Below are positions 958 to 31,837 of a stretch of 40,025 bases of DNA, in pieces (the stretch's first letter is position 1; every line of letters starts with the position of its first letter). The stretch covers positions 1 through 40,025 of the IMG/VR virus record IMGVR_UViG_3300032157_000366; one strand, given 5' to 3'. The notes beneath the pieces were generated by a model. The model was given only the letters and a program-made list of their open reading frames with translations, was not told the DNA's origin and did not search any database. The translations under genes and the position numbers were made by a program. The stretch comes from a virus.

Positions 958-2313
958 TTATTGTACGATAAAAATGAATGTTCCTCCAATTCTTTTTGTT
1001 CCTGTAGCCGTCCAATTAGCTGCAACCCCTGCGATGGTCTGATAACAATTAACTGTAGACGCGTTAGGAACAAGTGAAGTGAACATTTGTTGTGAGTTAC
1101 CTCCATTATCAATTGCATATCCTCCGAATTGAAACTGATTTGCGTTTGTTGCAGCGTTTGAAACCTTACTAGCAGGTAATGTAAAAGAAGCTCCTGTAGA
1201 ATTAGATGTTCCGTCCACGTAAAAATGCAGCATCATTGTTTTGGAATCTATCATTTTATACTCTGCGTATTGGGTTGGGGTTCCGCTCCATCCTGTTAAT
1301 GATAGGCTAATTGATGTCCATACGGTATTGTCCGACAAGTCAGTTGTAGCAAGTTGCCCGACAGAAAACGCGTTGCCAACCCCTGTTTGTTTCACCACCT
1401 GAGACGTGCCGCCAGTAGCACTAAAGTCTGTTCCGGAAGGAAACACCATACTTCCATTTGCAGCTGGAGCAGAGGTTATGGTAACTGTACCGCCGCTAGC
1501 GCCAAGCAATTTCAATGATGATGTAATGAGGCCGGTTGCTTTGGCGTTACCATTAACATCTAATCTATATGCAGGTGTTCTTGTATTAATCCCAATGCAA
1601 CCGGAGCAAGAATTTGTATATGTATTGACTACTAAATTTGTTTGTCCGGTTAATAATACTGTATTATCAACGCCAAGACTTACTTGTCCATTATCCCCAT
1701 ATAAAGCAAGACCTCCAGGCAAACCACTTCCGGCAGAAATCCATCCCGCTGATAGTAGATTTGTGGATGCTGATGCTTCTGGAGGAATAGGTAGTATATT
1801 CATCATTCTTGATTTTCTCCAATTACCTATTTCAAGGCTTGTCCAAGCGTTCGCGCCTGTGTTTTTATTTCCTATTTTAAAAATTACCCTTTCGTTTGCG
1901 TCATAGTTAAAATTCCATCTTAAAGTAGGATTGGAGGCGTCGCCATCATATACATCTGTCGCAAGCTCTGTCGTGGAATCAGTGCCAAATCCGACAAATC
2001 CGTTGTCTCGAACTATTAGAGCCTTATTTGTTCCTGTGGAGTTTTGAATCTTTTCTGAGAAGGTTGCAGAGGTCGTACCTGTTCCAGTTACTGTTGGGGC
2101 GATAAGGGCAGGGGCGGTCCTCAGAACCACAGTGCTTCCCGTTCCTGTAGTTGATGGTATAGAAACAGTCCCCGAAGAAGCCGCCAGCGGTGCAACTGCT
2201 GTAATGCTTCCTGAGCCTCCGGGAGAAACTCCTCCGGTGGACATTTGAGTCGTTGAACCCTGCCCGTATGCAATGGATGAAATCAGCGATAGAAGAAAAA
2301 GTATTTTTCTCAT
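958..2313 (-). CDS. Tail-fibre-like protein with N-terminal signal peptide
   Basis: This 451-residue protein starts with a clear Sec-type signal (MRKILFLLSLISSIAYGQ, likely cleaved before or after GQ), followed by a Gly/Ser/Thr-rich, low-complexity shaft (residues about 20-110) and beta-rich repeats with motifs common in phage and Bacteroidota surface fibres (DNGFVGFGTDSTTELATD, CIGINTRTPAYRLDVNGNA). The last about 120 residues form a compact domain (from about WTSISLSLTGWSG) that broadly resembles the C-terminal domain of the protein at 18510-19517, as expected for receptor-binding tips. Its position among other fibre and spike genes supports a host-recognition role. The signal peptide is odd for a virion fibre, which is assembled in the cytoplasm. 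Confidence 0.7.
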   Translation of the reverse strand: MRKILFLLSLISSIAYGQGSTTQMSTGGVSPGGSGSITAVAPLAASSGTVSIPSTTGTGSTVVLRTAPALIAPTVTGTGTTSATFSEKIQNSTGTNKALIVRDNGFVGFGTDSTTELATDVYDGDASNPTLRWNFNYDANERVIFKIGNKNTGANAWTSLEIGNWRKSRMMNILPIPPEASASTNLLSAGWISAGSGLPGGLALYGDNGQVSLGVDNTVLLTGQTNLVVNTYTNSCSGCIGINTRTPAYRLDVNGNAKATGLITSSLKLLGASGGTVTITSAPAANGSMVFPSGTDFSATGGTSQVVKQTGVGNAFSVGQLATTDLSDNTVWTSISLSLTGWSGTPTQYAEYKMIDSKTMMLHFYVDGTSNSTGASFTLPASKVSNAATNANQFQFGGYAIDNGGNSQQMFTSLVPNASTVNCYQTIAGVAANWTATGTKRIGGTFIFIVQ

Positions 2314-2329
2314 TTTATATGTTTTGCTT

Positions 2330-2728
2330 TTAATCGAGATTTATAACAGCTCTTACGGTTCCCAGGGTGGCGTTGCCTTTCGTATACACAACCCTATACT
2401 CTGACGCGCTTTTATTTTTAATATCTACGGTGTAATTATGTTCTCCGGCAGACAGAGTGAATGTGATTGGAGTGGTATTGTCGTCGGCCATGACAGTCGC
2501 CCATCCGCACTGGTTATCGCCTCTCTTTTCAAAAGCTACCGTAGAAGTGCTTCCGTTGAATGCAGCATTGGTGTATATGTGTAACCCCCCACTCCTGCGG
2601 CCAGCAGCCACCGCAGAAGAATAGTTTCCGGTTGCTGTAGCAGCTAATGAGTTCATCAGGACAATTGTCTGAGAGTACCCGGTTGTCAGGGTTAGAGCGA
2701 AGCAGAGTAGCAGAATAAATTTTTTCAT
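2330..2728 (-). CDS. Secreted small beta-rich protein in the tail-fibre cluster
   Basis: A 132-residue protein with a strong signal peptide (MKKFILLLCFALTLTTGYSQ) and a mature part of about 110 residues made of alternating polar and hydrophobic stretches typical of a beta-sandwich (for example GEHNYTVDIKNKSASEYRVV). It lies 16 bases upstream of the fibre gene ending at 958 and just after the coiled-coil protein, so all are likely co-transcribed. I recognise no family. It might be a virion decoration, a fibre accessory, or an exported protein acting on the host envelope. Confidence 0.55.
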   Translation of the reverse strand: MKKFILLLCFALTLTTGYSQTIVLMNSLAATATGNYSSAVAAGRRSGGLHIYTNAAFNGSTSTVAFEKRGDNQCGWATVMADDNTTPITFTLSAGEHNYTVDIKNKSASEYRVVYTKGNATLGTVRAVINLD

Positions 2729-2731
2729 CTT

Positions 2732-3013
2732 TTATTTTTTAAGGTTAATAATATGTTCAAGCATTTTTGTGTGAGACTGATCGATACGGTCAACTATATC
2801 CGCCTTGTTTTTAGCCATGCAATCGTGTATCTCCAATTTTGTGTCGGAGATGTTCTTATTCACCTCCGCGAACCTGCCCAGGTAATTGTCGCGTATCTCC
2901 TTCGCCACCTCCTCGTTCTTTTCAATTTTCTTTTCCATCGACTCGATCTTCGCATTGATAGTTACGATGGCTAAAAAGAATTTGGCTATTCCGCCGAGTA
3001 CAGGGACGCTCAT
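2732..3013 (-). CDS. Small membrane-anchored coiled-coil protein
   Basis: 93 residues: an N-terminal hydrophobic stretch (about residues 3-20, VPVLGGIAKFFLAIVTI) followed by a long charged helical region with heptad-like spacing (KIESMEKKIEKNEEVAKEI onward) to the C-terminus. This one-membrane-span plus coiled-coil layout is seen in spanin-like, tail-accessory and superinfection proteins. Nothing here shows a lipobox or catalytic motif, so no specific role is claimed. It is flanked by signal-peptide proteins of the fibre cluster on the same strand. Confidence 0.5.
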   Translation of the reverse strand: MSVPVLGGIAKFFLAIVTINAKIESMEKKIEKNEEVAKEIRDNYLGRFAEVNKNISDTKLEIHDCMAKNKADIVDRIDQSHTKMLEHIINLKK

Positions 3014-3024
3014 GGTTTTCTATT

Positions 3025-4338
3025 TTAATAATGATGCACACATGGATATGGAAGATCGACCCAATTATCAGGAGCGGCCGAGCCGTTAGTTGAATAGAGA
3101 TAATCTCTTCCTGAAGTATAGATTCCAGTTTCGTAATTATGAAAACCGGTTCCGTCTCCATCCGAACCATCAAAAACAACATACGTGTTGCTCCAAATAG
3201 CAGAATCATCCTCCCTTTGTGAGACGGTCGTTCCAGAGTGTGTTGATGGATACGTCAATCCGCTTGCGTAACCCATGCTCAACCAATATGGATAAGCATG
3301 TGGATCACCGTCCACCCCAATACCAAATCCGAATCTTCCTCCGTACAAATAAAGATGATGAGCACGGATTGGCGCCCCTCTTGACATGTACAACCTTTCC
3401 ATTGGCTCATCCACCGAATGTGTACCATTTGATACGTATGCACTTCTATCAAAGAATTTGGTGTTGATTATTGAATCGTAATAGCTAACCATTAACCGGG
3501 TTGAGTAATAATTTTGACTACCCAACGCTCCTCCTTCGCCTTCCTGGCCGTGGCCATCAATAGCGTGCTTTGAAGGGTTGGCGGAAATAATATTCTCCCG
3601 TATCATATTATACCTGCTTTCATATACTGCACATCCTCCGGCCGCGATAGCGTGAGACTGATACTTGTAATTATTACCATCGATGTAGATCATGTTTCCA
3701 TCTGTATGGTTTTTATAAGCCATCCATTGCAAATTTTCGCCATAAATTACTACCCCGTATCCATAACCCAAACCGGTAGCTCCTTTGGCGTTCCAAACGA
3801 ATCCATTCTTTTGAATCAAACCTCTTGCAAAGAAATCTCTGTGATTAATGTAAATCGCACCATTACCGAAATACCAGAAGGCACACTGCGTTACCTCAAA
3901 GCCAGAAACGTTGGTGAATTTGAGCGCCTGGTCGAGAGCGATACTCTTCCCATCGGCGCCTGCATCGTCTACACTTGGAACTTTACTCATGAATTTTATT
4001 CCCTTTACCTGAACTCCGGAAGGGGCATAATTCCAACTTGTTCCAACAAATTCGAAGAATGGCTCGTTCAATAAATTTGCATCTGAACTAGAAGTATTTC
4101 TATACAGGATTGTATTACTCGAGTCCAATCCCAATATCTTTATTTTTATATTTATGGTGATGCGAGGATGACTGATATAAACGGAGCACGCCGGAAATGT
4201 AATCGTGTCACGATCAGTTAATCCAGACAGTGCATTATTTACATTGGTTTTATTATCCCCAGCAGTTATTGCCACTATGTGATTGGTCGCAAAAGCTTGC
4301 TGAGCAATCAGGCATAATATGAATAATATTCTTTTCAT
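3025..4338 (-). CDS. Tail spike-like right-handed beta-helix protein with signal peptide
   Basis: 437 residues. The N-terminus is a Sec signal (MKRILFILCLIAQQAFA). The region after it (TAGDNKTNVNNALSGL, then DTITFPACSVYI) matches the start of pectate-lyase-type beta-helix proteins, where a short amphipathic segment precedes the first coil. The middle has repeated short strands with Asn, Gly and aromatic residues (FEVTQCAFWYFGNGAIYI, YNMIRENIISANP), typical of a parallel beta-helix. Such proteins in phage tails bind or degrade surface polysaccharide. I see no definite catalytic residues, so lyase versus hydrolase versus binding only is open. It is 2 bases from the next fibre gene, indicating one operon. 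Confidence 0.65.
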   Translation of the reverse strand: MKRILFILCLIAQQAFATNHIVAITAGDNKTNVNNALSGLTDRDTITFPACSVYISHPRITINIKIKILGLDSSNTILYRNTSSSDANLLNEPFFEFVGTSWNYAPSGVQVKGIKFMSKVPSVDDAGADGKSIALDQALKFTNVSGFEVTQCAFWYFGNGAIYINHRDFFARGLIQKNGFVWNAKGATGLGYGYGVVIYGENLQWMAYKNHTDGNMIYIDGNNYKYQSHAIAAGGCAVYESRYNMIRENIISANPSKHAIDGHGQEGEGGALGSQNYYSTRLMVSYYDSIINTKFFDRSAYVSNGTHSVDEPMERLYMSRGAPIRAHHLYLYGGRFGFGIGVDGDPHAYPYWLSMGYASGLTYPSTHSGTTVSQREDDSAIWSNTYVVFDGSDGDGTGFHNYETGIYTSGRDYLYSTNGSAAPDNWVDLPYPCVHHY

Positions 4339-4340
4339 GG

Positions 4341-6305
4341 TTAGTTGTGATATATTTGAATAAATAAACTTCTTGATCCTCCCAGGCGATTTTTAATTCT
4401 AACGCTAGTGCCATTGTCAAAGACACAAATCTTTGTGTCCGTATCTGCCACAGCAGCATTCAAAGCGTCCCCCGTGTTCGTTTGAGTAACAACTGCGTTC
4501 CCGTCGAATCGGAAGTTGATTGCTCCATCCAGCGTGGTAGAAGTAGCGGTCTGGATATATCCCCATCCATGAACTCCGGCAGGTAAATCGATTGTTCCGT
4601 CATCTGCTACTATGACGTTTGTGTTATACTGATATAAACCATTTTGAATAATCTTACCATCGTATGTAGCCTCGATCAAATCAGTTCCATTGTTTGATAT
4701 AGTAAAAAGCGGGCCAGTTGCTGCATTACTTCTTGTTATCTGAAGAAAATTTCCAGTTGCAGTTTTCCCATTAAGTATTCTGTCGTCTTGAAATGATATA
4801 CCAACGTCGGTTGAATTTGCAGACAATGTCCCCACATTCTGCGCCCTAAAAACAAGTCCTGGAGAAGATACGGTTGCACCCGTACCCAATGATTGCACTA
4901 TTAACCCATCCCCTGCGGAATAAATTTTTGTTCCGAAAGAAGCCCCAGAAAAATTGTATATGTCAGCTCCACCTTGCATTCCAAGCAGTGACAATGCTAA
5001 AGAGTTAGCCGTGGCTATTTCCAATCCAGTTCTTCCGGATGCAGCATTGATAAACATCTGAGAGGCCAGTGGGAAAGCTATCCCAGAACCTACCGCGACA
5101 CCAGCGGAGTTATTGTTGTAGATGTCATTACCGACTGCTGTCCACTTGGTGCTCGGAGCTTGCCATTCTCCGAAGCCGTCGGCCTTTTTAGTGAATACGT
5201 ATCCTGTTGAACCTGTTCCGTCGTTTATTTTTACTTGCCCATTAATAGTGAGTGATTGACTTGCTACAGTAGTCCCAAATACCCCGTAGATCAAAGCTTT
5301 GACCCTACCATCGGCTTCATTTGATCTTAGCCTGTTATCAATAAATAATTTGTCGCTCCCGGTTTCATAAAACCCCGCGGCGAATCCAAGCGCCACGTTA
5401 CGATCTCCCGTACTGTTAGTAAACAATGCCTGATCGCCAATGGCTGTATTTTCATGCCCGTTTCCGAGTTTTAATGCACTCCATCCAATAGCTGTGTTGT
5501 CAAAGCCAGTTGTATTAGTATACATCGACCTAAATCCAATTGCTGTATTATAATCACCAGTTGTATTGTTTAATAAAGATTCTTTACCCACAGATATATT
5601 CTCATCGCCTGTAGTATTGGCTGCAAGTGCCGACACTCCAACAGCTGTATTATCAAGGCCAGTGGTCGAGCTATTTAAAGCACTAACCCCGAATGAAGTA
5701 TTGGTAACTCCTATCCTTCCGGAGGAAACAGAGTTTCTCTTGAATATCAGATCAATATTATCCGTTGTTCCCAGGAAATTAGTTCCTGCCGTAGTACCGG
5801 AATTACCGGTTATTCCCCATTTGTTATTGAATGTATTCCAGTCCGTCGAAGAGAGGTATCCGTTTGATCCCGTACCGCTTTGTGTTATAGTTAATGTTGG
5901 AGTCGATCCGCCCGTTGAAGATAAAGGAGAAGTTGCAGAAACAGAAGTAACCGTTCCAGCCCCTGAGCCTGATCGCTGTAACTCCCATCTCAGAAGGGAT
6001 AAGTTAAACCTAAATGCAAGCAGTTGATTTGCCGGGATGTCTCCAGCTATCAGGGCGGCTCCATTCAATACTATAGGATAAGCCGCCATTCCATTAACCT
6101 TCAAAGTTGATGCTCCGGAATTAACATTTGGAGTGCTGCATTGCACTTCCCTGTTATTAAGAAGTGTATTGGAAAGAATTGCATTGACCGTAACGGAATA
6201 TGAATTTGTTCCTGTCATCGTTCCGGTGAAGGCACGATAAGAAGCTTCCTGGCCAAAAGAGTTGATAGTGAAAATTAGAAATGCTATTAATAATATTTTT
6301 TTCAT
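4341..6305 (-). CDS. Large tail fibre with YadA-head-like repeats and signal peptide
   Basis: 654 residues beginning with a signal peptide (MKKILLIAFLIFTINSFGQ). A collagen-poor beta region follows, with motifs frequent in Bacteroidota phage fibres (GTVTSVSATSPLSSTGG, LSSTDWNTFNNKW). Residues about 205-320 hold about five to six degenerate repeats of 20-odd residues built on N-T-A-I-G and N-T-T-G (for example DNTAIGWSALKLGNGHENTA), very like the trimeric left-handed solenoid of YadA-type adhesin heads. This predicts a trimeric fibre or adhesin binding the cell surface. No S74-type chaperone domain is evident at the C-terminus. The signal peptide is unusual for a tail fibre. Confidence 0.7.
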   Translation of the reverse strand: MKKILLIAFLIFTINSFGQEASYRAFTGTMTGTNSYSVTVNAILSNTLLNNREVQCSTPNVNSGASTLKVNGMAAYPIVLNGAALIAGDIPANQLLAFRFNLSLLRWELQRSGSGAGTVTSVSATSPLSSTGGSTPTLTITQSGTGSNGYLSSTDWNTFNNKWGITGNSGTTAGTNFLGTTDNIDLIFKRNSVSSGRIGVTNTSFGVSALNSSTTGLDNTAVGVSALAANTTGDENISVGKESLLNNTTGDYNTAIGFRSMYTNTTGFDNTAIGWSALKLGNGHENTAIGDQALFTNSTGDRNVALGFAAGFYETGSDKLFIDNRLRSNEADGRVKALIYGVFGTTVASQSLTINGQVKINDGTGSTGYVFTKKADGFGEWQAPSTKWTAVGNDIYNNNSAGVAVGSGIAFPLASQMFINAASGRTGLEIATANSLALSLLGMQGGADIYNFSGASFGTKIYSAGDGLIVQSLGTGATVSSPGLVFRAQNVGTLSANSTDVGISFQDDRILNGKTATGNFLQITRSNAATGPLFTISNNGTDLIEATYDGKIIQNGLYQYNTNVIVADDGTIDLPAGVHGWGYIQTATSTTLDGAINFRFDGNAVVTQTNTGDALNAAVADTDTKICVFDNGTSVRIKNRLGGSRSLFIQIYHN

Positions 6306-6309
6306 AATC

Positions 6310-6963
6310 TTATTGTAAGAGTGCCGATGTCACCTTTCTTGCTATTCCGCTTCTGTCAGCCAGAACTATGAATCCATATCCTGTCAAAACAGCATCGGTA
6401 TTTGTTTCCAGAGCTAATTGCCCGGTACTTATTCCGCTCACCGCCGTAGCTTTTAACCGTACGGACATTCCGGTTACTTCGAATTGAATAGAGTGATCTG
6501 TGGGTAATGAAGATGGGTCTCCCATAGTTGAAATTTCAACGGCTCCAATCGGAACCTCCGCGTTCGCATCCGCCAGCTCCCATTTGGTTCCATCACTCAA
6601 TAAGTTACCCAGATTGGAATTAGCTAGAGATCGGTAGCAATAATCAGCGGTTCCGCCATCGCTCCCACTTGACTTCACAATGTTGTTAAGAGAATATGAT
6701 GTTGAATTGTCATAAAGAGAGCAAGCAAACTTTAACACTCCAGCATATTGCACATCCGCCGGAATAGTCAACTCTTTAGCAGTCCAGTCATAAATAGCTG
6801 GGTCGGCCAGATCAATGGTTTCTATTGCAGTTACATCCCCCTGGCTAACCATTGCGTTTATAATATCAATGATGAGTTTTTGCAGATTAGCGGCAGTAAC
6901 TTGCTTAGTGCTGTTTTGAAAAACATACGCTTGCGCTTCCGCTATGAGTTCTGCTTTTGTCAT
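6310..6963 (-). CDS. Tail/baseplate-associated protein with CBM-like module
   Basis: 217 residues. The N-terminus is helical and rich in Ala and Gln (MTKAELIAEAQAYVFQNSTK), as in adaptor segments that join fibres to a baseplate. The middle carries a degenerate motif of the type Y-x-x-x-x-x-Y-x-x-x-x-x-V ... Y-x-x ... W (YDNSTSYSLNNIVKSSG and later GTKWELA), related to small carbohydrate-binding-like modules present in three other proteins of this window. It has no signal peptide, unlike the next four large downstream genes. Its place between the LysM/baseplate genes and the fibres suggests it connects them. Confidence 0.55.
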   Translation of the reverse strand: MTKAELIAEAQAYVFQNSTKQVTAANLQKLIIDIINAMVSQGDVTAIETIDLADPAIYDWTAKELTIPADVQYAGVLKFACSLYDNSTSYSLNNIVKSSGSDGGTADYCYRSLANSNLGNLLSDGTKWELADANAEVPIGAVEISTMGDPSSLPTDHSIQFEVTGMSVRLKATAVSGISTGQLALETNTDAVLTGYGFIVLADRSGIARKVTSALLQ

Positions 6964-6966
6964 CTA

Positions 6967-7245
6967 TTAGTTGAATGAAAAATCAAATGAGTCATCAAAG
7001 GATTTTCCTATAAAATTTCTTGCCGTAGAGTAAATAATTTTTTCATTCTTTATTTTATTCAAAAAAGACAAGTCTGTGATATTGTCCGAATTGAATGTGA
7101 ATTTCTTCCCGGCTATTTCCTCATCATTTAAGCTTTTCAATTCTGAATCCTGAACGAGTTGAATGACCTTATCGAGATTTCCGTATGTAAGAAGGCAGAT
7201 GTCGTAAATTGTCTGACCCTTCCTTCCCGTATAGGTTAAATTCAT
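6967..7245 (-). CDS. LysM-like tail protein (gpX type)
   Basis: 92 residues. Residues about 8-55 form a LysM-like unit: RKGQTIYDICLLTYGNLDK, then QDSELKSLNDEEIAGKKF. In contractile phages small LysM proteins (P2 gpX and relatives) lie among hub and baseplate genes and help couple the hub to the tail. The C-terminal 35 residues are polar and aromatic. The start overlaps the end of the upstream gp25/W-like gene (ATG and stop share bases), which suggests translational coupling. The family call is by motif pattern and neighbours. Confidence 0.7.
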   Translation of the reverse strand: MNLTYTGRKGQTIYDICLLTYGNLDKVIQLVQDSELKSLNDEEIAGKKFTFNSDNITDLSFLNKIKNEKIIYSTARNFIGKSFDDSFDFSFN

Positions 7246-7550
7246 TTTCTTATCGCATCAGTTTGAACATCCAGAATGTCGTTCCTAAATTTCACCAAAC
7301 ACCTGTTTACCGTATATCCGTCTGCCTGGAGCTGAATTTTGATTTCCCTTTCAACCTCTTGTTCTTTTAAACTTGCGTTTAGGTAGTTCATTATCCCTAC
7401 TCCACACGCCGGGAACTCTTTCCACTCTCCTTTGTTCGACCTTATTACGTCCTCAATATGTTGAGCATCAGAGGCAGCTATTACAAGGTCTCCAGCTACC
7501 GGGTCAATATATAGAGCGCCATCAACTGTTTTAAGATCGAACGCTTCCAT
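7242..7550 (-). CDS. Baseplate wedge protein, gpW/gp25/Mu gp46-like
   Basis: About 102 residues from the ATG at 7550. The pattern DVIRSNKGEWKEFPACGVGI followed by an amphipathic stretch and ...EVEREIKIQLQADGY is characteristic of small baseplate proteins of the gp25/gpW/Mu gp46 group, which form part of the wedge and nucleate the sheath. The frame extends to a TTG at 7556, but that TTG lies inside the promoter -7 box (TATATTTG), so the ATG three bases beyond the box is more likely. If transcription starts there the message would be leaderless or nearly so. Followed by the LysM gene with a short overlap. Confidence 0.75.
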   Translation of the reverse strand: MEAFDLKTVDGALYIDPVAGDLVIAASDAQHIEDVIRSNKGEWKEFPACGVGIMNYLNASLKEQEVEREIKIQLQADGYTVNRCLVKFRNDILDVQTDAIRK

Positions 7551-7553
7551 AGG

Positions 7554-7596
7554 CAAATATAACTCGTTGCATTTTTAAAAACATCCTGTGGGTTAA
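7554..7596 (-). promoter_or_regulatory. Phage late-type promoter P1 (TTAACCCAC-N26-TATATTTG)
   Basis: On the minus strand GTTAACCCAC (box at 7588-7596) is followed by 26 bases and then TATATTTG at 7554-7561, which fits the Bacteroidota -7 consensus TAnnTTTG. No TTTG occurs at the usual -33 site. The box overlaps the stop codon (7593-7595) of the spike gene. Three more sites in the window share the box and the exact spacing. The ATG of the baseplate gene at 7550 lies three bases past the -7 box. Confidence 0.75.
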
Positions 7597-8168
7597 CTTC
7601 CGTGTTTTACAAGAGGGTTCTCTATTCCAGAGAAATCTCCAGCTGGTTTTCCTGCCATCCCTGCAATTGCCGCGGCCTTCAAAGCTGCCCCTCCATCCCC
7701 AGGAACAGGAGCCCATGTGGTCAAGGCGGTTATGACAGCTTGAAGTTGTGCATTCAGTTTATTGATCTGCGTTTTCAATTCCAAAGTTTTTGTAAGTCCA
7801 CCGAAACCACCATCATTGAACTGAGTCAACCCCTGAGATATTTTCAAGCTGCTTTTCTGTGTCCCATTGAACACAACCATCTCGAGAGAATCCAAATCAC
7901 TGAACAGGGCCACATATCCTGTATTCTTTTGAGACAGCGCAACTATTACAACACTATCAACCTTCGGGATAAGTAGAAGACCGTCGTTCGGTTCTGCTTT
8001 GAGCGAAACGGAAGGAATTTTTGCAGTACTGTTTCCGCTTACAGGAGTGCAATCGCACGTTTGAGAGGTTGTGTCTACCGAGTCCACGGTACATACCACA
8101 AAGCTCAACCCATCACTCTGAAAAGTTTTAGCTAGTTTTTGAATTGCCTCTGATATTACTCTATTCAT
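7593..8168 (-). CDS. Baseplate spike protein, gpV/Mu gp45-like
   Basis: 191 residues. The N-terminal part (about 15-95) has the OB-fold-like beta pattern of phage spike proteins (FVVCTVDSVDTTSQTCDCTP, then PSVSLKAEPNDGLLLIPKVD, DSVVIVALSQKNTGYVALFS). The region after it (KLNAQLQAVITALTTW) is a helix typical of this family. It ends in a short Gly/Ala-rich C-terminal segment (FSGIENPLVKHGS) also common to phage spike proteins of this kind. The protein would form the trimeric membrane-piercing tip below the hub. The start overlaps the hub gene stop by a few bases, consistent with coupled translation. Confidence 0.75.
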   Translation of the reverse strand: MNRVISEAIQKLAKTFQSDGLSFVVCTVDSVDTTSQTCDCTPVSGNSTAKIPSVSLKAEPNDGLLLIPKVDSVVIVALSQKNTGYVALFSDLDSLEMVVFNGTQKSSLKISQGLTQFNDGGFGGLTKTLELKTQINKLNAQLQAVITALTTWAPVPGDGGAALKAAAIAGMAGKPAGDFSGIENPLVKHGS

Positions 8169-10011: not shown

Positions 10012-10012
10012 A

Positions 10013-11584
10013 TTATGTTCCTGCGATTATCTGAGAATCATTTACCGCCTCAAGCAATGCTTTCGTAACCGCCTCCTTTATTTTAGATGCACTTTCCTCG
10101 AGGTTTGTAGTCGATATAGTAAACTTTTCGATGATGTTTCCTATTGTGATGTTTATAGTAGTGGCTTTCGTCCCTGAGACTTTACTTGTTCCGGCATCGA
10201 ATGAATCATTTCCGGATAATGAATTTCCTTTAGCTCCAAGAACAGAAGCAACAGGAGAAAGTATTTTCGTTGTTAAACCTAAAGCCGTCATTCGTCTTTT
10301 CGCTTCCCTTCCTTCTCCAAATGCTTGCTCGAATTTTGAATCCGCTCTTATTTTTATATCAGCAAGACTTTCATTCATGTGAAGGAATCCCTCACGCATA
10401 AAAGTGATTGCATAAATAATATTATCAACCCTGTCTTTTGTAAATTGCAACATTCTTCCAAGCATACTTTTTTCTCCGAAGGACTGCTCCAAATTACTTC
10501 CTGTTATATCCATGCCAAATAAATATTTAACAGAATCTATAACCATGTCAACTCCTTCTTTGAAGGATTCTGAATTTTGGTACGCTAAATAAAATGCTGC
10601 TCCAAGAGCGGCTATTCCGGCCACCATAAGCCATACAGGATTTGCCATTAGTGTCACCATTAGCTTAGACATTGCTCCAATTAAATCGTATGTGGCAATT
10701 CTCCAGACAACAAATGCAGCTGCGGCCAGCCCAACACCGAAAGCAATCGCCTTGAAAATCTCCCTATTGTCCTTCACGAATTTTATAAATCCCTGAAACA
10801 TCTCAATCAGTCTCTGGAATGATTTAATGAACGCATTTATAGCAGGTTGAAAAATCTTGAATATTGAATTCGCACTCTGAGTCAGCATGTCTTTTGTATT
10901 TGACCATTGGCCCCCAGTAGTCTTTGCCAATTCCTCGGTGAGGTTGTTAAACTTCCCTCCGGCCCCCGTCATGTTCTCGAAAGCTTTTTGTATCTGCGGG
11001 AATCCGACTTTCCCGTCCTCAATGTACTTCTGCAACGCAGCCCCCGTCTTCCCGGTAACTTTTGCTAACTCTTCGTATATCGGGATACCTCTATTCGCAA
11101 ACTGCCGTATATCTACGGTCATGGCCTTACCCTGGGTCTTTATCGTTCCGTACAGGTATGCGATCTCTCCCACTGGCTGCGATATTCCGGCAGATACATC
11201 GCCAAGTTTTCTAAGCGTAGGAATAATATCCTTTGCCGCGAAGCCATAAGCGAGTAACTGCTTTCCTGCTGTCTGTACTTCTGTTTGGCTGAAAGGAGTT
11301 GTTTGAGCAAACTTCACCATCTGACCGATAAGAGCATCGGCTTCTTTCTTACTCCCGAGCATTGTCTTCATCGATACATTCAGCGACTCCATATTAGTAC
11401 CCGCATTAAATACCTCCTTCGCCAGGAACCCAAATCCATATCCGGCAGTCAATCCAACAATACTATTCCTAACAGAGGAAAGGGTACGCTCAAAACTTTG
11501 AGTATTTTTCTCAGCATTTCCGATCATTCGACTGAACAAGTCTTTGAGGGAAATCTCGTATTCTACCTTATTATTGTCCGGCAT
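10013..11584 (-). CDS. Tail tape measure protein
   Basis: 523 residues. The N-terminal about 250 residues carry the tape-measure signature (MVKFAQTTPFSQTEVQTAGK, then LRKLGDVSAGISQPVGEIAY, FANRGIPIYEELAKVTGK, GKVGFPQIQKAFENMTG). Two hydrophobic stretches follow (FGVGLAAAAFVVWRIATY and LMVAGIAALGAAFYLAYQ, about 285-340), as expected for the region entering the host membrane. The C-terminal region is helical and Thr/Ala-rich. At the usual 0.15 nm per residue the length implies a tail of roughly 80 nm, short for a contractile phage. It begins 1 base after the stop of the frameshifted chaperone, a textbook arrangement. Confidence 0.9.
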   Translation of the reverse strand: MPDNNKVEYEISLKDLFSRMIGNAEKNTQSFERTLSSVRNSIVGLTAGYGFGFLAKEVFNAGTNMESLNVSMKTMLGSKKEADALIGQMVKFAQTTPFSQTEVQTAGKQLLAYGFAAKDIIPTLRKLGDVSAGISQPVGEIAYLYGTIKTQGKAMTVDIRQFANRGIPIYEELAKVTGKTGAALQKYIEDGKVGFPQIQKAFENMTGAGGKFNNLTEELAKTTGGQWSNTKDMLTQSANSIFKIFQPAINAFIKSFQRLIEMFQGFIKFVKDNREIFKAIAFGVGLAAAAFVVWRIATYDLIGAMSKLMVTLMANPVWLMVAGIAALGAAFYLAYQNSESFKEGVDMVIDSVKYLFGMDITGSNLEQSFGEKSMLGRMLQFTKDRVDNIIYAITFMREGFLHMNESLADIKIRADSKFEQAFGEGREAKRRMTALGLTTKILSPVASVLGAKGNSLSGNDSFDAGTSKVSGTKATTINITIGNIIEKFTISTTNLEESASKIKEAVTKALLEAVNDSQIIAGT

Positions 11585-11585
11585 A

Positions 11586-12106
11586 CTATTTTTGTTCTAT
11601 CAGGTTCATTTTCTTGCTGTAGTATATGAACTCGCCATATTTCTTAAACAATTCATCGTCGCTCAACTGGTCAGCATTACAACGGAAAAAGCAGCTGACT
11701 AACGCAATTACTTTCGTTAGTTCGCTGCTCTCCTCAGTAATTGCGTACTGCTCTAATTTTTTTTTAGAACGTCGGTGTAGAATTTGAACACGCGTTGAAC
11801 TTCCAAAAGAGCACTCATGAATATTTGGTCGTCCTCGGGCAAACCACTCATTATCCTGGAAGAACTTTCCGGCTCTATGATGCAGGCTTTAAGGAGCATT
11901 TCACAGCTTCCTGTTAAGGACTGCATTATCATGTCCATTGCCCTCATTTTCAAAAGACGCTCCGGGTCTCTCAGGTATGCCACCACCTGCTCATCTCCTT
12001 CTACGACGAACGCAAAGGCGTAGACTTTTCTTTTTAATTTTTCTTCTAACGATTTACGGGTTTCTTCGATTTGATCGTCAGTGAGGTGAGAATTTTTTTT
12101 AGCCAT
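11586..12106 (-). CDS. Tail assembly chaperone, long form made by -1 frameshift (G-T type)
   Basis: Reading the upstream chaperone frame to the A9 run at 11757-11765 and then slipping back one base continues as KLEQYAITEESSELTKVIA and so on for 57 codons, ending at a TAG at 11586-11588, just before the tape measure ATG at 11584. The extension is open, protein-like and fills the gap exactly. In lambda and many other tailed phages the G/GT pair lies directly upstream of the tape measure and is made by a -1 programmed frameshift; GT binds the tape measure during tail assembly. The slip would be on A AAA AAA. Expected full length is about 173 residues. The shift itself is inferred from layout. 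Confidence 0.8.
11753..12106 (-). CDS. Tail assembly chaperone, short form (G type)
   Basis: 117 residues ending ...TDVLKKN with a TAG immediately after the A9 slippery run. The protein is acidic/helical, starts with a basic MAKKNSHLTDDQIEETRKS, and has a central region (LRDPERLLKMRAMDMIMQ and GSCEMLLKACIIEPESSS) typical of the gp41/gpG/phage tail chaperone families that carry a RDP-type loop. It sits between tube and tape measure, the fixed position for this protein. The short form is predicted to be the main product, with a minority frameshifting into the longer form. Confidence 0.8.
   Translation of the reverse strand: MAKKNSHLTDDQIEETRKSLEEKLKRKVYAFAFVVEGDEQVVAYLRDPERLLKMRAMDMIMQSLTGSCEMLLKACIIEPESSSRIMSGLPEDDQIFMSALLEVQRVFKFYTDVLKKN
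11757..11765 (-). promoter_or_regulatory. A9 slippery site for -1 ribosomal frameshift
   Basis: Nine consecutive A residues on the coding strand (T9 on the plus strand), just before the TAG that ends the short chaperone form. In the zero frame the codons are CTA AAA AAA AAT TAG, giving the canonical A AAA AAA heptamer. The -1 frame beyond it is open for 57 codons and stops 1 base from the tape measure start. I did not identify a downstream pseudoknot by eye. Confidence 0.7.
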
Positions 12107-12123
12107 AAATATTTTTGATAAAA

Positions 12124-12537
12124 TTATCGCTCGATGCTTCCTATGATAAGAGGAATCTTTACGGTGATCTTTGTGTCACCCTGCTTTGAAGCAAGCGGGT
12201 TCTCTAGGAATTCAACCGCTCGCAGTATGTCCTTTTCTGGGGTTACATTTAACCCGCCAAAAACCACTTCGATATTAAAAGGAGGAATTGCTTTAGGGTC
12301 ACGACCTGGAGCGGCGGCAATGATTCGCTTCCACTCATCAGTATATAGCTCGATAGAACCTTCCGGCTCTACGTTCCCATAACCACGGGATACAGGTTGA
12401 TTGCCCGCACCGTAGTTGTTCTCCTTGATCTGCTTGTCATTGTAATCAATTGCAACTATCCCGACGACAGGAACACCGAACAACATTACTGTTATGTTTC
12501 CCCATGCGTAGTTTACTCCGTTGATTAATGGTGTCAT
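12124..12537 (-). CDS. Tail tube protein (Mu gp40-like)
   Basis: 137 residues, directly between sheath and tail assembly chaperone, which is the fixed place of the tube gene in contractile phages. The sequence is beta-rich with features of the Mu/P2 tube group: GVNYAWGNITVMLFGVPVVG at the start, a loop with YGAGNQPVSRGYGNVEPEGS, and strands IELYTDEWKRII and KITVKIPLIIGSIER. It would polymerise into hexameric rings around the tape measure. Spacing to the sheath is 13 bases. No membrane or signal segments. Confidence 0.75.
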   Translation of the reverse strand: MTPLINGVNYAWGNITVMLFGVPVVGIVAIDYNDKQIKENNYGAGNQPVSRGYGNVEPEGSIELYTDEWKRIIAAAPGRDPKAIPPFNIEVVFGGLNVTPEKDILRAVEFLENPLASKQGDTKITVKIPLIIGSIER

Positions 12538-12550
12538 TTGTCTTTTTTAT

Positions 12551-14080
12551 TTAGAGAGAAAACCCTACAGTTATTTCGATGGTATTGGCCACTCCTATGA
12601 TGTGGAGATTGGCTGTCATTACAACCTTTGACGTGGATGCAACATTCTGATTTGTAGGGATGACTATATCGTCAGCCTCTACGACCGAAAGCTCCCCATC
12701 CCGAGCCATTTGTTCCAGTGGATTTCTCGCTTTAGATGCAAGCGTCTGAATGGTTGTATCTTGCATCGTTCCATCGGAGTTCAAGGTCAAAGGAGAGTTG
12801 AGATCAGGAAGAATGACAGTTCGAATATTCCTTCCCGCCTTATCAGCTGTCCGCCCATTTTCTATTTTGCTGTAATCATCCGTGGGAGATACGGCGGTAT
12901 GAGAATCGTTGAAGTAGCTGTTCGAAAGTCCTACAAACTTTCTCAGGAAAATATATTTGTATGTATTGAGCTGAGAAATAAGTCCGTCTGAGCTTGTGTC
13001 GAACGCTGTTCCGTTTGCGAAACCGATCTGATCGTATTCAACTCCATCGGAAAGAGGAAACTTTCCAACCCACGCAACAGACTCACTTACTTTTGCCAGA
13101 GATACCGCCCCCAGGAGTGTTCCGAGACATGTAACGCTTTTGCTGTACGCTTTGAACAATTCATATCCGAAACCACGCTGATCTTGACCAATAGCAACAC
13201 TCACGCGGTTCGCTGATAGGGCCGAAAGGTCTGCCAACGTAGAAAGATCGCTCACGGCCGATATATCGCTACCCAGTATTATGTTTGCTGGCTTATGAGC
13301 TGCGAACATGATCGCGTACTGTGCTTGAGCAGCTGTAACGTGAGCCGAAGTGTATGCGGTATTATTTATATACACTCCGAACTGGCGAATCTTCCCTTGA
13401 GCATAATCTTGAACTGTTTTCACTTCTGCAAAGTCATACGTAGAAGGAACAGCGTAGAAAGCCAGGTATAGTTTACCTTGAGGCTGTATGCGAAAAAACT
13501 CACTCACATGATACCAGTAAAGAGCTTTCAAAGAAGCGACCCCGGCAACTACGCTCTGGGTCAACGTTCCTGCAATCGTAGAACCTGCGATGGTCTTTGT
13601 GTATGGGGTTCCTGTGTTAGGAAATACTCCGAGCCCTGGTCTTGCAGTGATCGTAACCGTATCAGTTGAAGACGTTGCGGTAAATTTATGAGTGGCAGTG
13701 CCAGCGTTAATCATATTCTTGATCGCCGTGGCCACCAGTGTAGCGGTTGAGTCACTTGCAACTTTCGTATAAGTTCCCAGATCAACTACAGTTCCCTTCG
13801 GGTCTGTGAAAGTCAGCTTCAATGTGTCGCCCGTAGTTCCTGCGGTGGTGATCTGCAAGGTTGCAGTTCCTTTTGTTTCGTCCGAAAAGTCCTTTACAAC
13901 ACCCAACGCCTCAGCCTCCGGAGTTGAATAAATAACCTTAATCCTGTCAGAAGAAGTGAAACCGGAAGGAAGAACTCCATTAGCGCAATGAAATATCAAA
14001 GAGGAGATGTGATCTTCGCCCGGCAGAGGTCTTCCAAGACCTCCATTTCCTTGAATAATCTTTACATCGTTTAAAGCCAT
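12551..14080 (-). CDS. Tail sheath protein (DUF2586-like) with an inserted domain
   Basis: 509 residues. The N-terminus (MALNDVKIIQGNGGLGRP) and the central and C-terminal parts (KLYLAFYAVPSTYDFAEVKT, HKPANIILGSDISAVSDLST, SVAIGQDQRGFGYELFKAYS, SESVAWVGKFPLSDGVEY, YIFLRKFVGLSNSYFNDSHT) fit Mu-like sheath proteins. Between residues about 70 and 170 lies an extra Thr/Ala/Ser-rich beta region (DLGTYTKVASDSTATLVATA, then TDTVTITARPGLGVFPNTG) that looks like a surface-exposed insertion. The sheath contracts to drive the tube into the cell. It precedes the tube gene by 13 bases. Confidence 0.8.
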   Translation of the reverse strand: MALNDVKIIQGNGGLGRPLPGEDHISSLIFHCANGVLPSGFTSSDRIKVIYSTPEAEALGVVKDFSDETKGTATLQITTAGTTGDTLKLTFTDPKGTVVDLGTYTKVASDSTATLVATAIKNMINAGTATHKFTATSSTDTVTITARPGLGVFPNTGTPYTKTIAGSTIAGTLTQSVVAGVASLKALYWYHVSEFFRIQPQGKLYLAFYAVPSTYDFAEVKTVQDYAQGKIRQFGVYINNTAYTSAHVTAAQAQYAIMFAAHKPANIILGSDISAVSDLSTLADLSALSANRVSVAIGQDQRGFGYELFKAYSKSVTCLGTLLGAVSLAKVSESVAWVGKFPLSDGVEYDQIGFANGTAFDTSSDGLISQLNTYKYIFLRKFVGLSNSYFNDSHTAVSPTDDYSKIENGRTADKAGRNIRTVILPDLNSPLTLNSDGTMQDTTIQTLASKARNPLEQMARDGELSVVEADDIVIPTNQNVASTSKVVMTANLHIIGVANTIEITVGFSL

Positions 14081-14087
14081 TTTGATA

Positions 14088-14252
14088 CTATTTTACTATG
14101 AATAATTTGTCTTTCTTTTTCAACTCCTCGCGCACCGTTGCTTCACTTTGATTACAGTATATGTGCCCGTTACCATCAACGATGACACTCTCGTGGTGCA
14201 TCAGGTGACGCGTTGCCTCTTGAGCTTCTTCGAGGGTATTGACTTTTGCCAT
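14088..14252 (-). CDS. Small 54-residue protein upstream of the sheath
   Basis: A short gene: ATG at 14252, two bases after the TAA/TAG of the previous gene, and TAG at 14088-14090, seven bases before the sheath ATG. The product begins MAKVNTLEEAQEATRHLMHH and continues with a mixed polar, soluble sequence with ESVIVDGNGHIYCNQSEA and a Lys-rich tail. In many Mu-like phages a small protein sits just before the sheath. I see no known domain; it might be a sheath or head-tail accessory. It is easily missed because of its size, but it fills its gap exactly on the operon strand. Confidence 0.65.
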   Translation of the reverse strand: MAKVNTLEEAQEATRHLMHHESVIVDGNGHIYCNQSEATVREELKKKDKLFIVK

Positions 14253-14254
14253 CT

Positions 14255-15097
14255 TTAACCTATTCTCGTTAGGACTGCTGCGGAAGTTGTCAGGAACGTT
14301 AGCCTGAATACAGCGGCCCCAACAGTTGCACTTCCGGTTCTTGTGAGAGTATTGGTTCCAGGGAAATCAGAAGCCACGATGCCAGAACCGACAGCAACCG
14401 TAACAGTTCCGTTCGATGCGCCGTTGTTTACAACGACGAATTCAAATGTCGTCCCGGCAGTTGCCCCGGTTTGAGTTACAATCTGAGCAGCAGTTGGCAG
14501 TGTGAAGGTTGTGGTAGTTGTAGACGTTGCTGCAACAAGTAAGCCTCCAGCTAACTCAGCGGCAGTAACGGTGATCGAACCGGTTGCAGTGTATGTCGTA
14601 GCAGTTCTTAATTGAAATGTTTGCTTTGAAAAAGTAATTCCACTACCAGATGTTTGCTCTGTTATAGAAGCTGCCGTGATAGCACCTGCACTTCTGCGGG
14701 AAGTTTCTTGCCACGCTGACCCATTGAAGGTAAACTCAACGGTGGCATAAGTGCTCGCTGCAACCACAAGGGTTCCGCTTGCACTAAATCCTGTACTGAA
14801 AGTCACTGTTCGCGCTGTACCGTCAGCGTTAAAAATAACAGTCATCTTGTCCCCTGTATACGTCTTGGTCAATATCGAAGTCATTGTAAGCGCACCAGTC
14901 AACTGACCTATTCTGTAGGTAGTTTGTTCGCTGAAAGGAGTTACCGCAATAGAGGCAGCGTAAGAAATTGACTTGATCTCTTTATATGTGGTCGCATACT
15001 TGTTAGTGCCTCCTGGAACTACGCTGTAACGATACCCGAGCTGAGCGTTTGACAGCGTGCTCAGAAAGATCAGGGAAAGGAAAAGTATTTTTTTCAT
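14255..15097 (-). CDS. Signal-peptide virion-associated protein, beta-rich (head decoration candidate)
   Basis: 280 residues with a signal peptide (MKKILFLSLIFLSTLSNAQ) then a Thr/Ala/Ser-rich beta protein. Residues about 85-135 (MTVIFNADGTARTVTFSTGF, then VEFTFNGSAWQETSRR) resemble the mature part of the neighbour at 15139-15561 (CHIEFTADGTTRLMTLTG ... VSFYYNGTKWVQYNR), so the two probably share a domain. The C-terminal half has TTTTTFTLPTAAQI and repeated VTVAVGSGIVASDF-like strands. Such proteins between capsid and sheath often decorate the head. The signal peptide is unexpected for that role. Function is inferred from position only. Confidence 0.55.
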   Translation of the reverse strand: MKKILFLSLIFLSTLSNAQLGYRYSVVPGGTNKYATTYKEIKSISYAASIAVTPFSEQTTYRIGQLTGALTMTSILTKTYTGDKMTVIFNADGTARTVTFSTGFSASGTLVVAASTYATVEFTFNGSAWQETSRRSAGAITAASITEQTSGSGITFSKQTFQLRTATTYTATGSITVTAAELAGGLLVAATSTTTTTFTLPTAAQIVTQTGATAGTTFEFVVVNNGASNGTVTVAVGSGIVASDFPGTNTLTRTGSATVGAAVFRLTFLTTSAAVLTRIG

Positions 15098-15138
15098 TCT
15101 TAGTTATATTTATATGACAAACCCGATCTGAGATTTTT

Positions 15139-15561
15139 TTAGTGCTGCTGGTATCTGTTGTACTGAACCCATTTTGTACCGTTGTAATAGAATGAGACCC
15201 ACGACTTCCGAGAAGACATTACAGAGATTGTATCCCGGTTAATATCTGAAAGCATGGCAGTCCCCGTAAGAGTCATCAGCCTGGTTGTACCATCAGCGGT
15301 AAACTCAATGTGACACCTGTCCCATGTTTTTGCGTAAGTACTTCGTATATGAATGGTCTTTGCCCCGGCCACCGCAACCTTGTAAAAGGATTCAAAAGCA
15401 TCTGGAGCAATTGAATCAGTGCTTCCGAGAGATGGCGACGCTGTTTTATACACAAGAACACCTCCAGTGTTGTCTCTGTTTGGGGTTGTCCCGAATCGCT
15501 GCGCCGATGCATTCAAGGTGAAAGCCAGTCCGATTATGAATAGGGAAAGTAAATTTTTCAT
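15139..15561 (-). CDS. Signal-peptide protein related to its downstream neighbour (head decoration candidate)
   Basis: 140 residues with a clear signal peptide (MKNLLSLFIIGLAFTLNASAQ). The mature portion has a beta pattern ending in WVSFYYNGTKWVQYNRYQQH, similar in layout to residues 85-135 of the 280-residue protein that follows (FADGT core, then an F/Y-NG-x-W motif). This suggests a duplicated domain. It lies between a small protein beside the capsid gene and that 280-residue protein. A head or neck accessory role is inferred. The export signal needs explanation. Confidence 0.5.
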   Translation of the reverse strand: MKNLLSLFIIGLAFTLNASAQRFGTTPNRDNTGGVLVYKTASPSLGSTDSIAPDAFESFYKVAVAGAKTIHIRSTYAKTWDRCHIEFTADGTTRLMTLTGTAMLSDINRDTISVMSSRKSWVSFYYNGTKWVQYNRYQQH

Positions 15562-15608
15562 TCTTATTTTTATTAGTTGTTTTTTTTGTTGACTGACTCT
15601 TTTTTTTA

Positions 15609-15797
15609 TTACTCCGCTTTGCCTTCACAAAACTTTATTGCCTTCGCTCTGTCCATTTTAACAGGGTAACGCTCCTCTTTGTCTTTGTTTTCTTTATTGT
15701 CCTTGTGCTGGTGAAATTGCCAGTTTGTTTTCTCTTTATTGAAGTATACGTTCTTTACTTCCGGATGAGCGTTAAGGTATTGGAGAAGTTTTTCCAT
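15609..15797 (-). CDS. Small basic/acidic protein after the capsid gene
   Basis: 62 residues from the ATG at 15797 (MEKLLQYLNAHPEVKNVYFN). A longer frame to 15854 exists but would run into the end of the capsid gene. The protein is highly charged (Lys/Glu/Asp-rich in the middle, about residues 30-45) and has a Trp/His-containing N-terminal half. I recognise no domain. Position directly after the major capsid protein suggests a head-associated or regulatory role, which is only a guess. Confidence 0.5.
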   Translation of the reverse strand: MEKLLQYLNAHPEVKNVYFNKEKTNWQFHQHKDNKENKDKEERYPVKMDRAKAIKFCEGKAE

Positions 15798-15837
15798 GAT
15801 ATTTTTATTGTGTTTTATGTATAATTTTCGATTTAAA

Positions 15838-16917
15838 TTACAGACCGTAAGCAACGCATTCAGAGCCCCAGCCGATTTGAACGTCCGCTTTCATCAGCAT
15901 TTTGATGAACCAAAGCTCCGAGTTGGCTTGTTTAGGAGCAAGCTTCAAGCCTTCATCTGCCACAGAGTTCATACCCACCCAAAGGTTTGACCCAGGAGTA
16001 GCGTTTCCTCTAGCAATCACATATTTATCATCCGGGAAATCAGCGATCTTAACTACTTGCTTGCCAATAAATTTGTCACTTCCAAGCTGAGTAATGTCCA
16101 CACCTTTATATACCTGATCTCTTTGGCTCTGCCCATACAGATCAAATGTTTTGTAGGAGCAGAAATATTTCATGTCCGGGTCATAGCGTAGCTCAGGCCC
16201 GATAGCATCATACCCCTTCTTGAGCTCCGCCTGAATGTTATTGGTATCGAAAGTCGTAGGAGAGCTTACGTCAACTACATCGGCATCGTTAGCCATATTT
16301 GTCAGATACCCATCCCAGTATTTATAAATCGTACTGAGCGTCATGTCGTTGTTCCAGATACCTTTATTGAAATACTTCGCATGGCGTTTCAAAACCTCCT
16401 GTACGACTACTGACTCCACGCTATAAGGAAGCTTCCTGTCAATCAGCGTAGGATTCAACTGAGTTGCAAACCAGTGATCTTCAAAATCACGAGGGTTGAA
16501 CTCTGTATATATCATGTAATCCTGCGGGTCAAGTACTTTCCCGTCAACAGTCATGCTTCCTTTTGATACCGGAGTAGCTGCTCTGTCTTGGATGAAATCC
16601 TCGTAGTTCGCATCCCATCGAGGTATCGTGTATTTCTTCTTAATATTATCCTTAATGTAAACGTGTCCACCCATGATCGTGTCGGCTCCAGTCAACGCCT
16701 TTACGATGAACTGGCTGGCCACCTCCCCAGCATAGGTTGTGTCATTAATAACAAATCCGTCAACAGTCAATGAGCCTGCTGGAGAGAATTCCGCCTCCCA
16801 TATTCCTTTTACCAATCCTATTGCAAGGAGTCCAAATCCCAGGAATGGATTGATCGCAAATGCTACTGCGAGCAGAAGTATTGATAAGATAAGGCGGAGG
16901 AAGTTTACTTTTTTCAT
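15838..16917 (-). CDS. Major capsid protein, with hydrophobic N-terminal leader
   Basis: 359 residues following the prohead protease/scaffold gene, the normal position for the capsid. The body (SLTVDGFVINDTTYAGEVAS onward, then KKKYTIPRWDANYEDFIQDR, IYTEFNPRDFEDHWFATQLN, VVQEVLKRHAKYFNKGIWN, MKYFCSYKTFDLYGQSQRDQ) matches major capsid proteins of Bacteroidota Mu-like phages by pattern. The first about 45 residues are odd: a basic start (MKKVNFLRLI) and two hydrophobic helices (about 8-22 and 24-40). This looks like a signal peptide or membrane anchor. It may be removed by the ClpP-like protease, or it may place early assembly at the membrane. No start downstream of the leader is convincing. 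Confidence 0.75.
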   Translation of the reverse strand: MKKVNFLRLILSILLLAVAFAINPFLGFGLLAIGLVKGIWEAEFSPAGSLTVDGFVINDTTYAGEVASQFIVKALTGADTIMGGHVYIKDNIKKKYTIPRWDANYEDFIQDRAATPVSKGSMTVDGKVLDPQDYMIYTEFNPRDFEDHWFATQLNPTLIDRKLPYSVESVVVQEVLKRHAKYFNKGIWNNDMTLSTIYKYWDGYLTNMANDADVVDVSSPTTFDTNNIQAELKKGYDAIGPELRYDPDMKYFCSYKTFDLYGQSQRDQVYKGVDITQLGSDKFIGKQVVKIADFPDDKYVIARGNATPGSNLWVGMNSVADEGLKLAPKQANSELWFIKMLMKADVQIGWGSECVAYGL

Positions 16918-25816: not shown

Positions 25817-25892
25817 TGGTTGCGGGAGCTGGATTCGAACCAGCGATGTCCAGATTATGAGTCTGGCGATTTAACCTCTAATCTACCCCGCG
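25817..25892 (-). tRNA. tRNA-Met (CAT), initiator-like features
   Basis: The minus strand folds into a complete 76-base cloverleaf with CCA encoded at 25817-25819. The acceptor 5' strand is CGCGGGG; the 3' strand is TCCCGCA. The D stem is GATT/AATC, the anticodon stem CCAGA/TCTGG, the loop CTCATAA (anticodon CAT), and the T arm GCTGG TTCGAAT CCAGC. Base 1 is C and base 72 is A, an unpaired C1-A72 that marks bacterial initiator tRNA, and pair 11-24 is A-T as in E. coli tRNA-fMet. The three G-C pairs expected in the anticodon stem of an initiator are absent. Alternatives: elongator Met, or Ile2 if lysidine is added. Confidence 0.85.
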
Positions 25893-31747: not shown

Positions 31748-31755
31748 TTTTATTG

Positions 31756-31828: not shown

Positions 31829-31837
31829 AAACCGTTT

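Follow-up and report, generated by a model that had tools for sequence, protein, structure and literature searches.

Sec-type signal peptides on fibre-type proteins and on a capsid-adjacent protein family of contractile-tailed Bacteroidota phages

The virus record IMGVR_UViG_3300032157_000366 of IMG/VR, analysed here in its whole length of 40,025 bases (the window), belongs to a contractile-tailed phage in which several proteins of the morphogenesis region start with signal peptides for Sec export. They are encoded in the fibre region at the left end and, as two members of a family here called X, beside the capsid gene. The reading that we prefer, with slightly more confidence than doubt, is that distal virion proteins of such phages are exported and trimmed before they join the virions at lysis, and that a hydrophobic hairpin at the start of the capsid protein is a separate device. 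It is based on the signals, their placement, the fact that the signal is a removable module, the enrichment of a glycosylation motif in relatives, and tandem mass spectrometry (MS/MS) annotation in two cultured phages. The host is very likely a Bacteroidota bacterium, since the capsid is like that of the Bacteroides hankyphage p00 (31% identity) and relatives are found in contigs of Sphingobacteriales, Mucilaginibacter and Hymenobacter.

A sequence-only reading of this DNA had named six proteins with Sec signals. All six open reading frames are present on the minus strand, at 958..2313 (451 residues), 2330..2728 (132 residues), 3025..4338 (437 residues), 4341..6305 (a fibre-type protein of 654 residues), 14255..15097 (280 residues) and 15139..15561 (140 residues). 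A signal-peptide rule was written for this analysis (positive n-region, uncharged hydrophobic core, small residues at −3 and −1), and it is passed by all six, which bears out the claim. Over the window, 9 of 58 genes pass it, the other three being the capsid, a membrane protein at 255-716 and a gene at 29490-29804; the background is 238 of 11,600 shuffled N-termini and 145 of 8672 internal stretches. A stricter version, the Q-rule test, also requires glutamine after the cut, and reflects a habit of Bacteroidota in which cleavage by signal peptidase I exposes this residue (PMC5837995 and PMC10653852). Six of the 58 window genes pass the stricter test (958, 2330, 4341, 14255, 15139 and 29490), compared with 92 of 28,500 shuffled N-termini of relatives' genes. 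In the fibre region, glutamine follows MRKILFLLSLISSIAYG in the 958 protein, MKKFILLLCFALTLTTGYS in the 2330 protein and MKKILLIAFLIFTINSFG in the 4341 protein. The 3025 protein is the one exception among the six; its signal peptide, MKRILFILCLIAQQAFA, has AFA before the cut and threonine at +1. The proteins had also been described as starting with MKK or MRK and ending their leaders in GQ, SQ, AQ or FA, and this largely holds, except that 3025..4338 starts with MKR and 15139..15561 with MKN. The product of 29490-29804, a 104-residue Q-rule protein with a later hydrophobic stretch, is encoded among replication-side genes and has no family match.

The placement of these signals was followed in 89 related loci, where 1425 genes of at least 80 amino acids were compared and two kinds of gene were counted, X (between capsid and sheath) and the fibre genes after the baseplate. 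One of the searches for relatives kept the best 80 of 92, and a search based on the sheath returned a single locus. Of the 127 X or fibre-locus genes, 34 bear Q-rule signals, compared with 6 of the other 1298 (Fisher p 6e-32). Such signals are absent from all 480 genes for sheath, tube, tape measure, hub, spike, gp25, LysM and protease proteins, and from all 89 capsids. An origin of the signals in chance or in mis-called starts is rejected by the shuffle rates together with these 480 conserved structural controls. A further candidate, cargo of the type IX secretion system (T9SS) bound for the cell surface, was rejected because no C-terminal sorting domain was found: the six window proteins and four of the relatives' fibres had no match at E 0.1 in NCBIfam, which we take to hold models of this domain.

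Fibre-type genes with Q-rule signals stand after the baseplate LysM gene in 16 of the 40 loci examined, with one more (L011) recognised by eye, and in L083, which lies outside those 40, a mis-called start had hidden such a signal. The full-length signal-bearing fibres reach 1170, 1248, 1274 and 1488 residues. The fibre of L084 has a match to PHROG tail protein family 13768 (1e-31), and one of its domains is pectate-lyase-like, with a relationship to the LKA1 gp49 tailspike. The L027 fibre matches a tail spike family, and for the L041 fibre a search for relatives was without matches. In L074 the signal is followed by QVKISDMP, which weakly resembles the signal-less start EIKISELP of L047 (E 0.002 in a single comparison). 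Such genes can also stand in a row. One phage has three consecutive Q-rule signal genes (L018 19448-21280 and 21285-21593, and L096 15715-16389), and L041 has two (L099 8268-10438). In hankyphage p00 a small Q-rule signal gene (L019 20053-20439) directly follows the lysin gene and may encode a lysis protein.

The protein beside the capsid shows best how the signal is attached. The two window genes between capsid and sheath form one family: 15139..15561 encodes a single-domain form, with signal peptide MKNLLSLFIIGLAFTLNASA followed by Q and a nine-strand beta domain, and 14255..15097 a longer form, with signal peptide MKKILFLSLIFLSTLSNA followed by Q, the X domain and a second C-terminal domain. 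X is present in 71 of the 89 related loci, in 74 copies, of which 20 carry a signal, and glutamine follows the cut in each of them; with the window's two, it is kept in 22 of 22 signal-bearing copies. Once trimmed, the signal-bearing form aligns with the start of the signal-less form (AQ followed by STTPRFGT, compared with MATTPRFTG). Mature signal-bearing copies mostly begin QSTTPRFGT...DNT and the others mostly M-[AS]-[TN]..PRFTG...DNT, so that the signal occupies the place of the starting methionine. As for the leader, homologues are mixed, some with it and many without; the signal is therefore a removable N-terminal add-on module, on the evidence of these alignments, and orthologues work without it. 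The sequence-only reading had held that homologues lacking the leader would refute the idea of export. Homologues of that kind are common, since the leader is missing from 51 of the 71 distinct X proteins, a count that takes in the window's two, and among the domain relatives of the 4341 fibre it is absent in 9 of the 10 loci with a readable start; in neither case is the signal refuted.

Signal state does not follow the capsid. On the capsid tree (72 rows) it changes at least 9 times, 5 of these changes being forced by well-supported branches, compared with 2 changes on the X tree, which has 75 sequences, few columns and several long branches, among them the window's two. The capsids of L041, where X has no signal, and of L043 and L044, where it has one, are nearly the same. 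Because of these trees and capsids, X, with or without its signal, seems to move as an exchangeable cassette. Over five loci (L039, L041, L043, L044 and L046) near-identical capsids stand beside three different X genes, one of them with an export signal. A structure model of X (pLDDT, the predicted local distance difference test score, 87.1) has nine strands and shares the adaptor fold of the gp9/TSP4 type. Its closest match is the CBA120 tailspike TSP4 (7rej; Z 10.3, root mean square deviation 3.8, 109 residues), and it also matches T4 gp9 (Z 7.9) and the Pa223 capsid spike (Z 6.9); lower rows of this search, copper nitrite reductases and others with Z below 4, were treated as noise. Position and predicted fold together suggest that X is a decoration, spike or adaptor on the head or neck. 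No isolates with X were found in the phage collection.

Evidence from virions comes from MS/MS notes in deposited records of Cellulophaga phages, which are other viruses than that of the window. In phi10:1 such notes, some of them truncated, name 12 proteins in the stretch examined, of which four, gp091 to gp094, carry Q-rule signals. In phi39:1, 14 proteins are noted; gp26 has a Q-rule signal, and gp25, which is noted as well, has a signal of this type by eye that the rule rejects for a glutamate. All the signal-bearing noted proteins of the two phages belong to the distal tail gene cluster. According to these deposited notes, virion preparations from two cultured phages do contain proteins with such signals. 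Beside the noted fibre genes of phi10:1 lies gp095 (L126 47388-48878), a pectate-lyase-like Q-rule gene for which no MS note is given. For phi14:2 two noted proteins were seen; the one that was tested is without a signal.

These notes bear on a different explanation, in which the signal-bearing proteins are secreted helpers, such as free depolymerases, receptor blockers or surface proteins acting in infection or lysogeny, that merely have their genes in the late operon. Several of them carry domains of the pectate-lyase type, and the Q-rule proteins of Porphyromonas phages have been read in this way in prior work (PMC10367356). In the window the 958, 2330 and 3025 proteins fit it too: family searches found no recognisable virion domain in them. 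None of the three has relatives that could be found in viral contigs, and a search of the phage collection with the 3025 protein was without matches. However, X is orthologous to signal-less proteins in the same slot of the head-tail operon, signal-bearing proteins of phi10:1 and phi39:1 are noted as virion proteins, and the repeats of the 4341 fibre match tail spike and virion structural families. We regard the helper explanation as unlikely on the whole. The suggestion in the sequence-only reading that the six are not virion parts is the less likely view, although the window's own fibre-region proteins, three of them without relatives, remain open to it.

If the proteins are exported, they may meet the glycosylation machinery of the host. 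Bacteroidota attach O-glycans to exported proteins at the motif D-S/T-A/L/V/I/M/T (PMC12871550). We counted D-[ST]-[AILMTVS] against shuffled sequences, with the reversed motif as a control and identical sequences merged. In the fibre-locus genes with Q-rule signals (25 genes, 17 phages) it occurs 157 times against 62.4 expected, the reversed motif 61 times against 62.1, whereas signal-less fibre-locus genes (36 genes, 25 phages) have 69 against 68.9. Fibre-locus genes with other signal-like starts (11 genes) have 22 against 15.6. The fibre genes of L083 were placed with the signal-less group in these counts, where they are an outlier, though they were later found to bear a signal. Compared phage by phage, the difference has p 2e-6, for 16 and 25 values, with some phages in both groups, kinship ignored, and L046 omitted as a near copy of L041. 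In X, signal-bearing copies have 33 motifs against 12.4 expected and signal-less copies 31 against 35.0; for a wider motif, a site is found in 19 of 20 distinct signal-bearing copies and in 24 of 51 others. Of the window's two X proteins, that at 15139 has 2 motif sites and that at 14255 none. On these counts, glycosylation in many of the relatives is a good guess.

It might also be thought that the leader is not used for export at all, assembly being cytoplasmic and the hydrophobic stretch serving as an anchor or a folding brake. As is generally held, tail assembly is cytoplasmic in every known tailed phage, and the export of abundant late proteins could well be incomplete. Yet an anchor would need neither small residues at −3 and −1 nor glutamine at +1, which every signal-bearing X has kept, and a motif that is glycosylated only in the periplasm is enriched in the relatives' tagged fibres; this makes the explanation improbable. 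Least of all do we believe that the genes are recently captured host adhesins whose retained signals are useless to the phage: the tagged fibres are rich in a motif typical of exported Bacteroidota proteins, and three fibre-region genes of the window have no viral relatives, but X is a phage family with both states, its signal-bearing group of 17 has long branches with glutamine kept throughout, and phage tailspike domains are found on tagged fibres.

The capsid protein stands apart. It is encoded at 15838..16917 on the minus strand and has an HK97 fold, which in the model of its core matches the phiRSA1 capsid (Z 13.0, 215 residues, root mean square deviation 4.7). The hydrophobic leader that had been pointed out at its start is present, though it is a dissimilar device, a two-helix membrane hairpin of about 45 residues; in the model its helices span residues 3-22 and 24-43, with a pLDDT of 61-75 in these blocks. 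A Q-rule site is found in this position in 0 of the 89 related capsids. Two hydrophobic segments with a short turn are seen in the window's capsid and in 28 of 87 readable related ones (the 5' end is truncated in L011 and L056). A conserved DGFVINDTTYAGE follows the leader, and leaderless capsids begin at DGFVINDTTYAGE. In an alignment of eight leadered capsids the mean identity is 38% in the leader and 63% in the core. Positive residues stand before the first helix and often also after the second, so both ends of the leader would stay inside. The ClpP-type head maturation protease at 16961..18073 (minus strand), immediately before the capsid in reading order, is a candidate for removing it. 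Capsid leader and X signal are found together in 6 loci, the leader with signal-less X in 20, leaderless capsids with signal-bearing X in 14 and with signal-less X in 31, while X was not found in 18. A single uniform leader for capsid and fibres was thus rejected, in view of the two helices, the lack of a Q-rule site and the different distribution.

Three outcomes had been offered for the leaders in the sequence-only reading. Export followed by attachment is supported for X and the fibres by the starts of the X orthologues, by the tailspike domains and by the MS/MS notes in two phages. Assembly tied to the membrane is possible for the capsid only, its leader being a membrane hairpin and not a cleavable Q-rule signal. 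The third outcome, that the proteins are not virion parts, was weighed above. We therefore picture, for a group of tailed Bacteroidota phages, most of them contractile, a process in which the outer proteins that join last (distal fibres, tailspikes and the beta-sandwich protein X) would often be made as Sec preproteins late in infection. After export by the host, signal peptidase I would cleave them ahead of the glutamine, and glutaminyl cyclase would cap the new N-terminus; in many relatives host O-glycosylation might modify the exported proteins as well. Heads and tails would be built in the cytoplasm as usual and would meet the exported proteins once holin and endolysin open the cell. The capsid hairpin, for its part, may keep capsid protein that is still unassembled at the inner membrane, its body lying in the cytoplasm, until the leader is cleaved off by the head protease. 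From the evidence at hand we infer that infected cells export the proteins, that these are cut, glycosylated and joined to virions at lysis, and that the hairpin has this role.

Several observations weigh against this picture. The trait is not general on the genes tested, because phi40:1 and phiST have none: in phi40:1, 0 of 14 MS-noted proteins carry signals, and in phiST they are absent from all 12 genes tested, which are named as structural by similarity or as tail protein. Membrane vesicles in a virion preparation could account for the MS/MS notes. A possible start codon lies 2-5 codons before the cut in 12 of 22 signal-bearing X copies, where it is not conserved; in those copies an internal start might give a cytoplasmic form. 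The motif shows no excess in the window's four signal-bearing fibre-region proteins (5 against 8.1 expected), in the four MS-noted signal proteins of phi10:1 (6 against about 13), or in the long fibres of L079 (3 against 5.4) and L082 (6 against 6.8). In signal-bearing X the reversed motif, too, exceeds expectation (25 against 15.4), and in capsid cores, which are cytoplasmic, the motif reaches 183 against 111.9, with the N and E variants raised as well, so motif counts alone are unspecific. Glycosylation as the reason for the signals is accordingly unsupported in the window itself, and likewise in phi10:1.

A bolder form of the idea is that some tailed phages of Bacteroidota build the outermost layer of the virion outside the cytoplasm: fibres and capsid- or neck-bound X would pass through Sec, receive a pyroglutamate cap and, in many lineages, a host O-glycan, and be added as the cell opens, with the signal as a swappable cassette and with head building bound to the membrane by the hairpin in one clade. 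We put this forward tentatively and would sooner doubt it than accept it. If it is true, progeny fibres, and perhaps heads, leave the cell coated in host-type sugar.

The remainder of the window is laid out as in a contractile-tailed phage. Read leftward, it encodes small and large terminase, portal, a Mu F-like protein, baseplate genes, the ClpP-type head protease and the capsid; leftward after the capsid come tail sheath, tube, tape measure and hub, with the fibre-type genes at the left end. The small terminase, the Mu F-like protein and some of the baseplate genes had no family match and are presumably these proteins, going by gene order and sequence. The sheath (12551..14080, minus strand) is without a signal and served as a control. 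A gene at 6310..6963 (minus strand) separates the baseplate genes from the signal-bearing fibre genes; its product, a 217-residue protein without a signal, is perhaps a fibre adaptor, judging from its position. A tail gene before the protease (18510-19517) has a weak match, below the Pfam cut-off, to a carbohydrate-binding module (CBM5/12). At the right end of the window, 39069-40004 encodes a protein with many near-identical short repeats of the VEARENSS type, spanning about 39556-39900, followed by a unique C-terminal part. Two tRNA genes stand among the phage genes, tRNA-Met (cat) at 25817-25892 and tRNA-Val (tac) at 31755-31829.

The accepted view is that tailed phages put their virions together entirely in the cytoplasm. 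Should distal parts be exported beforehand, the order of assembly, the timing of lysis, the display of host glycans, adsorption and recognition by defence systems would all have to be reconsidered for these phages, whose hosts belong to a major bacterial phylum, the Bacteroidota. It would also explain fibre genes in Bacteroidota viromes that may have been annotated as host secreted proteins. Full-text literature searches, outside which most subscription papers lie, found no Q-rule signals on virion proteins of tailed phages. What looks new is that export signals stand on the fibres of tailed phages and on a head-tail operon protein with signal-less orthologues, together with the MS/MS notes and the motif enrichment; phage proteins that follow the Q-rule but have no known function, and signal peptides on the capsids of Porphyromonas phages, had been reported before.

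Among known systems, filamentous phages are similar in that virion proteins have Sec signals; their coat proteins, such as M13 pIII and pVIII, carry signal peptides that are cut before assembly. Inoviruses, however, assemble in the membrane during extrusion, whereas here tailed-phage heads and tails are concerned, and an inovirus-type gene set was rejected for the window, where portal, terminase, sheath and tape measure are present. The predicted fold of X is like that of T4 gp9, CBA120 TSP4 and the Pa223 spike, from which X differs in being a stand-alone protein that is encoded beside the capsid and sometimes export-signalled. Hankyphage p00 (BK010646) resembles the window virus in its capsid homologue and in a ClpP-type protease just before the capsid, but its capsid has no leader and its 2245-residue putative tail gene no signal. 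The O-glycoproteins of Bacteroidota are likewise exported proteins rich in the motif (PMC12871550), whereas here the proteins are those of phages, and the motif, known from sequence alone, is enriched in relatives and not in the window's fibres. Closest are the Porphyromonas gingivalis phages. According to PMC10367356, they have five Q-rule genes of unknown function, taken as possible modifiers of the outer membrane, and capsids with predicted signal peptides that are supposedly removed by the prohead protease. The two groups share Sec signals that expose glutamine on phage gene products, and signal-like capsid starts; the difference is that here the signals are on tailspike-type fibres and on X, with MS/MS notes from virions in other phages.

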